DNA from: Alphaproteobacteria bacterium
GTDB lineage: Bacteria; Pseudomonadota; Alphaproteobacteria; GCA-2731375
Direction: 5' to 3'
DNA length: 38,247 bases
Assembly: GCA_021776235.1 (NCBI GenBank)
Contig: JAJFGG010000011.1
Span: 1 to 38,247 of the forward strand
The notes under the pieces were generated by a model that had not been told where the DNA came from, did no database searches, and was given only the letters and a program-made list of their open reading frames with translations. Shown in pieces: positions 4,858 through 33,125 of the stretch. Within the stretch, counting starts at the first letter, position 1, and every line of letters begins with the position of its first letter. The translations under genes were made by a program, and so were the position numbers.

Positions 4858-4947
4858 TGCTGCCATCCTTCCAACTGCCGGATTTAGCTCGAAATCTTAT
4901 TGTAAGGGCCGCCGGCGCCAAAGGAAATTCGCCCCGGGATGCTATTG

Positions 4948-5109
4948 ATACCAACCCGCGTTGATAGGGACCCATAGAGATCGTCTCCGTGCTGCCTTTT
5001 GGATGGCGTCGCCCACGACTGACGATACCCCGTATCGCTGCGTCGCACGCTCCTACCCAAAAGCCCTCGCAAGGCGTCTCTATGGGTTCCTATCAGCGCG
5101 GGTTGGTAT
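4948..5109. repeat. 162 bp hairpin element, copy 1
   Basis: Outer arms 4948-4980 and 5077-5109 are 33-base inverted repeats, matching at 31 positions; the two exceptions are T/G and G/T, which would be wobble pairs in a plus-sense RNA. A mini-hairpin CGATAC-CCC-GTATCG lies at 5023-5037. A second element at 32917-33076 shares the inner arms (GATAGG, ACCCATAGAGA) but has different outer arm bases and an inverted core. The right arm overlaps the last codons and stop of the glycosyltransferase gene. No transposase is encoded. It could be a non-autonomous mobile element or a structured RNA. Confidence 0.8.
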
Positions 5110-5809
5110 TAGCCCGCCGGCGACGGGGGCTGCGTTGCGAATTGTAGAGCCGCGCCAGTCGATCCGGCGAAATGCCCAGGTGATACAGAGCATGTATCAC
5201 CAGCCAACCGAGGACGATGGCCACCGGATGCCGTCCGACGAAACGCCGGGCCGACGTGAGCAACGGCGGATCGCAAATGCAACAGGTCGCACCGGCTCTT
5301 TCAAGACGGCGGGTGAAATCATAATCTTCCATCAGTGCTATGGGGCGCAGCCCGCCAAGGGCCTCGTACACGGATCGGCGGACAAAGATCCCGGAATCGC
5401 CATAGTAGATACCGCGGCGGCGCAACCAGGCGTAAAAGCCGTTGAGCCATTGGCTGAAGCCGTCGCCACCGTCGAAAGTCAATTGGAAATTGCCGCCGAT
5501 GATTGTCGGCGATGCCAAGAGTATTTCCGCGATCCGGGCCAGGCCGCCAGCGGGAAATACTGAATCCGCATGCAGAAAAAGAAAAATGTCGCCGTTGGCT
5601 GCGCCGGCTCCGGTTCGCATTTGCCGGCCGCGGCCGGGTTCCGAGCCAAGGCATCTGGCCCCGGCCCGCGCCGCCAGTTCAACGGTGCCGTCGCCACTGC
5701 CCCCGTCGACGACGATAATCTCGCAGGGCGTTGTCTCTGCGCAAAGGCTGAGCAATAGACGCGGCAGGTTTCCGGCTTCGTTGAAGGTTGGGATGATGAC
5801 CGAGATCAT
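5093..5809 (-). CDS. Glycosyltransferase family 2, TIGR04283 (arsenosugar-type) subgroup
   Basis: A 238-residue GT-A fold enzyme. It begins ISVIIPTFNEAGN and carries VVDGGSGDGT, GRGRQM, LFLHADS (the DXD-like metal site), YGDSGIFVRR and LMEDYDF with the ED base region; this set is characteristic of the TIGR04283 glycosyltransferases, some of which occur near arsenosugar genes. No ars genes are visible here, so the acceptor is open. The start at 5809 is chosen because AAGGAGG lies six bases before it; an upstream GTG would place that run inside the gene. The last codons (NTNPR and stop) lie inside the hairpin element, so the natural C-terminus may have been replaced by an insertion. Confidence 0.87.
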   Translation of the reverse strand: MISVIIPTFNEAGNLPRLLLSLCAETTPCEIIVVDGGSGDGTVELAARAGARCLGSEPGRGRQMRTGAGAANGDIFLFLHADSVFPAGGLARIAEILLASPTIIGGNFQLTFDGGDGFSQWLNGFYAWLRRRGIYYGDSGIFVRRSVYEALGGLRPIALMEDYDFTRRLERAGATCCICDPPLLTSARRFVGRHPVAIVLGWLVIHALYHLGISPDRLARLYNSQRSPRRRRANTNPR

Positions 5810-32876: not shown

Positions 32877-32916
32877 GACAATGAAATCCTTCTCGATAGG
32901 GACTACGGTTAGGCTC

Positions 32917-33076
32917 ATACCACATTGCGATGATAGGGACCCATAGAGATCGTCTCCGCGCGCCCTCGGGTAGGAGAGGAGGCGCAGGCGATGTGGGACA
33001 TCGTCAGGCGTGCTCGACGCCATCCGAAAGCTCCCGAAATGCGTCTCTATGGGTTCCTATCATCGCAATGTGGTAT
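32917..33076. repeat. 160 bp hairpin element, copy 2
   Basis: Arms 32917-32949 and 33044-33076 are 33-base inverted repeats with one G/T exception. Compared with copy 1, arm positions 7-10 change from ACCC to CATT and the partner from GGGT to AATG, keeping pairing; position 14 changes from T to A with its partner from G to T. The central CGATGT-GGG-ACATCG at 32989-33003 differs from copy 1's CGATAC-CCC-GTATCG with pairing kept. The 70-base core matches copy 1 only when reverse-complemented. It fills the gap between divergent genes. Confidence 0.8.
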
Positions 33077-33125
33077 TAGCTATTGCAAAGGCATCGTCAC
33101 CTGTCCCGATTGTAAGGAGGCCTCC

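Follow-up and report, generated by a model that had tools for sequence, protein, structure and literature searches.

The window, that is the whole stretch of 38,247 nucleotides analysed here, contains two hairpin-forming elements whose outer arms differ between the copies and still pair, and the question that they raise is what keeps the two arms complementary while their sequence changes. The preliminary description had reported such a pair of hairpins, with outer arms ACCC/GGGT in one copy and CATT/AATG in the other and with T.G against A-T at the next variable pair, and all of this is present at the two loci as described. Its elements are real but one base too long on each side, since the outermost base belongs to the flanking TNA (Table 1). 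Arms of 33 nt with 94% complementarity (4948–4980/5077–5109) are found in copy 1 and of 37 nt with 95% (32913–32949/33044–33080) in copy 2, and neither fold is equalled by any of 200 dinucleotide shuffles (copy 1, -99.1 kcal/mol, z = -12.8; copy 2, -102.6 kcal/mol, z = -9.0). The mismatches that remain in these two copies are of the G.T type on the plus strand, as had been said, but in the family as a whole the wobble-type mismatches are strand-symmetric.

Both copies belong to a MITE family, here called family A, with about 40 loci in the genome from which the window comes. When up to 3 mismatches are allowed, the inner-arm pattern is found at about 80 places in this 6.36-Mb draft genome, mostly as facing pairs, against 2 for a control pattern. 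With at most 1 mismatch it is matched in 10 of 96 genomes, the own genome included, all of one bacterial family and two genera, and there is no match in the remaining genera and families of the class that are represented among the 96. The carriers are uncultured alphaproteobacterial MAGs, including Black Sea material from 150 m and the isolate name 'casp150'. Many contigs of three of the MAGs (G006, G001 and G011) end within these elements, and the copy numbers taken from drafts are therefore underestimates. The plasmid and phage collections searched gave no match to the element, and viral contigs were rejected as carriers, as their two inner-arm matches and one core match each stand alone, with no other part of the element, and are due to chance. 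At least 30 solo arms of 15–30 bp begin exactly at a TACCA preceded by TWA and then run into unrelated sequence (L131–L158 and others); these may be remnants of copies after decay or deletion, or may have another origin.

The 55 complete elements that were gathered are non-coding and 54–286 bp long, with lengths that cluster at 258–261 bp, shorter forms of 54–193 bp and longer ones of 265–286 bp. On either strand the complete form of about 261 bp folds into a Y, with a terminal stem (P1, 31–33 bp, 96% of its cells paired) and two hairpins, P2 and P3, with a short junction between them, and the fold of a complete copy has z = -15 to -19 on both strands. P2 and P3 contain one imperfect motif, CGGGTAGGAG...GACGCCATCCG, in opposite orientations, indicating that the element is an inverted dimer of one hairpin unit. 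Copies 1 and 2 are internal-deletion derivatives, shorter than the complete copies and each without one of the hairpins, and in the hairpin left in copy 1 there is a T-A pair where nearly all complete copies have C-G. Rfam gave no match in the window at the gathering score and only sub-threshold ones for the complete copies, the best being MIR5084 with 36.8 bits against a cut-off of 110. This match to a plant microRNA precursor (L045:1138–1257, E 2.7e-4) is probably a long-hairpin artefact, and a known RNA family was rejected as the identity of the element, since nothing credible appeared in Rfam even at a relaxed threshold.

Table 1. The two family A elements of the window, their paired parts and their flanks.
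Feature	Position	Strand	Remarks
Copy 1, family A element	4949..5108	+	160 bp, ACCC-type tip, P1 and one hairpin
Copy 1, left terminal inverted repeat (P1 5' side)	4949..4980	+	inverted-repeat search
Copy 1, right terminal inverted repeat (P1 3' side)	5077..5108	+	inverted-repeat search
Copy 1, remaining internal hairpin, P3-derived	4997..5062	+	TTTTGGATGGCGTC...CTCCTACCCAAAA; sequence against family alignment
Copy 1, left flanking TNA	4946..4948		TGA
Copy 1, right flanking TNA	5109..5111		TTA, middle base unlike left flank
Copy 2, family A element	32918..33075	+	158 bp, CATT-type tip, P1 and one hairpin
Copy 2, left terminal inverted repeat	32918..32949	+	inverted-repeat search
Copy 2, right terminal inverted repeat	33044..33075	+	inverted-repeat search
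Copy 2, remaining hairpin, P2-derived	32967..33026	+	conserved motif CGGGTAGGAG...GACGCCATCCG; exact pattern match
Copy 2, left flanking TNA	32915..32917		TCA
Copy 2, right flanking TNA	33076..33078		TTA; empty site of relatives has a single TAA

Copy 1 has amidohydrolase and glycosyltransferase genes on either side, both on the minus strand, and copy 2 is located between divergent genes for an FMN oxidoreductase/dehydrogenase and an amidohydrolase. The glycosyltransferase reading frame, which runs from 5824 down to 5093 on the minus strand, stops at a TAG within copy 1 (window 5093–5108), and the insertion thus provides its final few codons and the stop.

Identical 3-bp flanks are present in 39 of 54 copies and are nearly all TNA, mainly TTA or TAA, also TCA and TGA; the flanks of copies 1 and 2 each mismatch at the middle base. 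For copy 2 there is a precise empty site in three relatives (G006, G010 and G004), reading straight through as GGC-TAA or AGGC-TAA where the window has TCA-element-TTA. Insertion duplicates 3 bp (TNA), and with inverted repeats at their termini, duplicated target sites and empty sites these short, non-coding, multi-copy elements have the features of MITEs. They lie in intergenic DNA beside genes, with no preference for a gene end (48 at 3' against 56 at 5' ends, 39 against 40 within 60 bp) and none for an orientation relative to the genes. At L065, L038 and L269 elements or ends adjoin one another, as if earlier copies were preferred targets.

The compensation that the preliminary description had seen between two copies extends to the many further ones, in which arm changes are compensated throughout, as is also seen in a 25-copy alignment. 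Covariation was measured on 39 distinct complete copies with a consensus structure of 106 base pairs, giving 4108 cells. Paired cells make up 94.7%, against 83.3% in shuffles and 38–44% when the partners are slid by 1–3 columns. Two-sided change is found at 54 of the 106 pairs (38.4 in shuffles), and the covariation score is 0.345 (0.136 shuffled); none of 500 shuffles reached the observed value on any of five measures. The shuffles take no account of relatedness between copies, and events were therefore counted on a tree, which gave 132 two-sided Watson-Crick to Watson-Crick events over 50 pairs, a number that is approximate because the tree ignores recombination between copies. Near-identical copies (3–6% divergence) differ by 1.38 two-sided changes per copy pair where 0.06 are expected, about 20-fold. 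A search for orthologous insertions common to two species, which would isolate post-insertion change, gave no clear case.

IS630-family transposases (NF033545, PF13358) are found in 12 of the 15 genomes of the bacterial family, and three of these (G003, G006 and G012) contain IS630-family elements with TACCA ends 1165–1168 bp apart and with TNA flanks, which in the three copies of G012 are TGA/TGA, TTA/TTA and TAA/TAA, identical on both sides in all three. The IS630 and MITE ends have TACCA, GC or AC, TGAT and ACCC in common and are alike at about 18–19 of 25 bases; for the right end of the IS in G003, a count by eye gives 19 identities with the MITE end among 25 anchored bases. The similar ends and the same TNA duplication in the elements of relatives indicate that IS630-family elements probably mobilise the MITE in trans. 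No TACCA-end IS630 was found in the 174-contig draft of the window's own genome. Three of the TACCA-end elements (L249, L250 and L268) have two overlapping frames, the first of about 190 aa with HTH domains and the second with the DDE part, an arrangement suggestive of programmed frameshifting. As other possible helpers, the DDE_Tnp_1 and DDE_Tnp_1_2 transposases were rejected since no TACCA ends lie beside them, and a RAYT/REP link was rejected since none of the four Y1_Tnp genes in the genome is flanked by a Y element; in one case a lone decayed arm lies at a distance of about 1 kb. G012 contains more than 100 copies of a DDE_Tnp_1 transposase, mostly with near-identical scores, an unusually large IS expansion.

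Selection at the RNA level, with the element transcribed alone or inside mRNAs and the RNA hairpin being kept, would agree with the very stable fold, the strong covariation, the conserved imperfect internal motif and the intergenic position next to genes, and transcripts of MITEs that form robust structures have been reported (PMC3733652, PMC10969869). The transcribed strand should then tolerate G.U but not A.C, whereas among the one-sided departures on the tree the changes from Watson-Crick to G.U number 76 for strand A and 79 for strand B, beside 65 other mismatches. Transitions mediated by G.U should likewise dominate the two-sided changes, but 68 of these are transitional and 64 transversional. 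The symmetry of the wobble changes between the strands, together with two-sided changes that are as often transversions, indicates maintenance at the DNA level rather than by an RNA that tolerates G.U, and with a Y that forms equally on both strands, no bias to the 3' or 5' ends of genes and no Rfam family at the gathering score, we regard selection on RNA as unlikely, although it is the most probable of the alternatives. Another explanation is that a few palindromic masters gave rise to the copies, so that the matched differences are old differences between subfamilies and maintenance is not continuing. Relatedness does inflate the cell counts, and one-sided changes are mostly terminal (175 one-sided changes that break Watson-Crick pairs against 58 two-sided ones on terminal branches) and the internal branches mostly two-sided (45 against 74), as if inserted copies decay. 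The two-sided events are however spread over many different pairs and a good part of them lies on terminal branches, one separates two copies of the same genome that differ by 2.3% (L064 and L072), and a founder model yields no new matched changes inside subfamilies, which makes this origin improbable.

The pairing could also be a by-product of end recognition, if one transposase binds both ends and the subfamilies follow different transposases. Such recognition is typical for MITEs, IS630 elements with related ends are present in the bacterial family, and the tips differ between subfamilies. In the IS elements (L249, L250, L258 and L268), however, the two ends agree at only 8 of 16 variable tip positions (positions 6–9), so that identity at these positions does not seem to be required by the enzyme. 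Between the MITE arms 153 of 156 cells are paired at the same positions (about 98%), and recognition by a transposase alone is therefore insufficient to explain the matching. P2 and P3 are far from the ends, yet covary as strongly as P1, with 12–14 two-sided pairs each, and we give end recognition as the sole cause little chance.

The explanation that we favour, and hold to be fairly probable, is that family A is a non-autonomous Y-shaped transposon with a probable IS630-family helper, and that its arms are kept complementary as DNA by templating of one arm on the other together with selection. An IS630-family transposase acting in trans would read an end signal of TACCA, 4 variable bases, GC, TGAT and ACCC, and would duplicate a 3-bp TNA target. 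During replication the single strand would fold, and one arm could serve as template to correct the other, either by template switching, which is a described route to restore stem pairing (PMC8794818), or by repair within the hairpin. Spread would be reduced for copies whose fold is broken or whose internal motif is damaged, and the structure would work mainly as DNA. A maintained hairpin or arm-to-arm copying had been named in the preliminary description and these appear to be the right mechanisms, but the longer Y-shaped MITE, the status of both copies as deleted members, the target-site duplication and the likely IS630-family helper were missed.

Against copying between the arms, transversions are over-represented among the two-sided changes (64:68 transversional to transitional, against 65:155 for one-sided changes), an excess not expected if ordinary mutations were copied in one step; it may be a parsimony artefact of long branches. 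Block-wise template switching was rejected, as neighbouring pairs are not enriched for joint change (8 adjacent two-sided changes, 7.0 expected), and there is thus no sign of long copied tracts. In the internal motif GGGTAGGAG/GACGCCATCC conserved G.T pairs and a bulged A persist where all else pairs, and since pure arm correction would erase them, selection must act on the motif, perhaps as a site for a protein. Also against the favoured explanation are the incomplete match of the IS ends, the unequal flanks of both window copies and the negative search for a TACCA-end IS630 in the window's own genome.

A search with the internal motif only gave 11 further elements of 268–270 bp, family B (L241, L242, L312, L313, L315–L318 and L321–L323), which have a terminal stem CTAGTGTCCTGG..., GTGTCCTGG ends and CTAG insertion sites, and in which covariation is also strong, with 30 of 109 pairs two-sided among 10 sequences. 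P2 and P3 are alike in families A and B, with alignment scores of 54–84 and 44–72 against shuffled means of about 28 (sd 4–5), and the P1 stems of the two families are not alike. Type C is represented by a single 259-bp element in the window's own genome (C132:85485–85743, the same as L153:1486–1744), with ends GAGCATTTCCGGG..., P2 and P3 that match the core (scores of 59 and 56.5, where the best of 300 shuffles gave 43.5 and 46) and a P1 unrelated to the other terminal stems. Other PF13358 loci (L266 and L267) have ends nearby that resemble those of B and C, which suggests that these types may have other IS630 helpers. Two family B copies directly adjoin an end sequence, CTAGTGGTCTGAATC, that is also present next to the IS630 gene at L252, and further type-C-like ends are found, one beside an element in L028 and another in L140. 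It is possible, and we propose it tentatively, that the Y fold and not the end sequence is the persistent unit, which has gained at least three unrelated ends (TACCA/TNA; GTGTCCTGG/CTAG; GAGCATTTCC) with its self-complementarity kept. Templated copying from arm to arm would then allow both ends to be replaced and homogenised, and the element could hop between helper transposases.

Hairpin-folding MITEs are ordinary in bacteria (PMC10969869), and NEMIS/Correia, ERIC/RU-1, RUP and QMITE2 are like family A 70–300 bp long, non-coding and intergenic, with terminal inverted repeats and target-site duplication, and self-complementary throughout; they depend on a transposase supplied in trans, as family A probably does too (PMC3733652, PMC10969869). 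Compared by description, these have a single stem whereas family A is a three-arm Y with arms of variable sequence and conserved pairing, and with its core behind three unrelated ends; NEMIS/Correia elements are defined by a terminal-repeat sequence of their own, TA duplication and RNase III processing, whereas family A duplicates TNA. The view in the preliminary description that no described family has this signature was too strong, because compensatory changes have already been published for one family of mobile hairpins in bacteria, the REPINs (PMC3116915). The REPINs/RAYT system is similar in being a mobile hairpin of two inverted units, P2 and P3 being inverted copies each with GTAG, but the terminal inverted repeats and TNA duplication of family A are of the DDE type, its unit is about 260 bp and not a short REP doublet, and the Y1 genes are not flanked by it. 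CGTC-tagged REPs are common in alphaproteobacteria, where they have no known transposase, and GTAG- and CGTC-tagged REPs are like family A palindromic, intergenic and dimeric (PMC3733652). They are short, with stems of 8–9 bp (CGTC) or 5–13 bp (GTAG), unpaired tags and CCA tails, whereas in family A the letters GTAG and CGTC are located within or beside paired stems of 24–32 pairs.

The likeness to the IS630 family (Tc1/mariner-IS630 group) lies in the ends and in the choice of target, family A going with the TACCA/TNA elements and families B and C having CTAG-type flanks, like IS630 elements inserting at TA. Family A differs in having no transposase gene and in the 3-bp TNA duplication, as IS630 elements usually have a TA target. 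T-shaped self-complementary viral telomeres such as AAV ITRs have an outer stem and two internal hairpins, and their arm identity is regenerated by copying through the hairpin. The resemblance to family A is an analogy only, serving to illustrate how arms could be kept matched, as the two are not homologous, the element is not a replication end and no replication protein was found.

Among open-licence papers nothing relevant was found on cloverleaf or multi-stem MITEs, and neither family A, nor a Y form with such strand-symmetric covariation, nor one core behind three ends was found described in that literature or in Rfam, which is weak evidence that they are new. If our explanation is true, family A offers over 50 natural copies with covariation of a kind usually taken to prove a functional RNA, but symmetric between the strands, not mediated by G.U and probably made at the DNA level. 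This would call for care when RNAs are discovered by covariation, and the family would lend itself to tests of template switching as a process that creates and preserves stems. An exchange of terminal stems around a conserved Y core would, if true, give MITEs a new route from one helper transposase to another.
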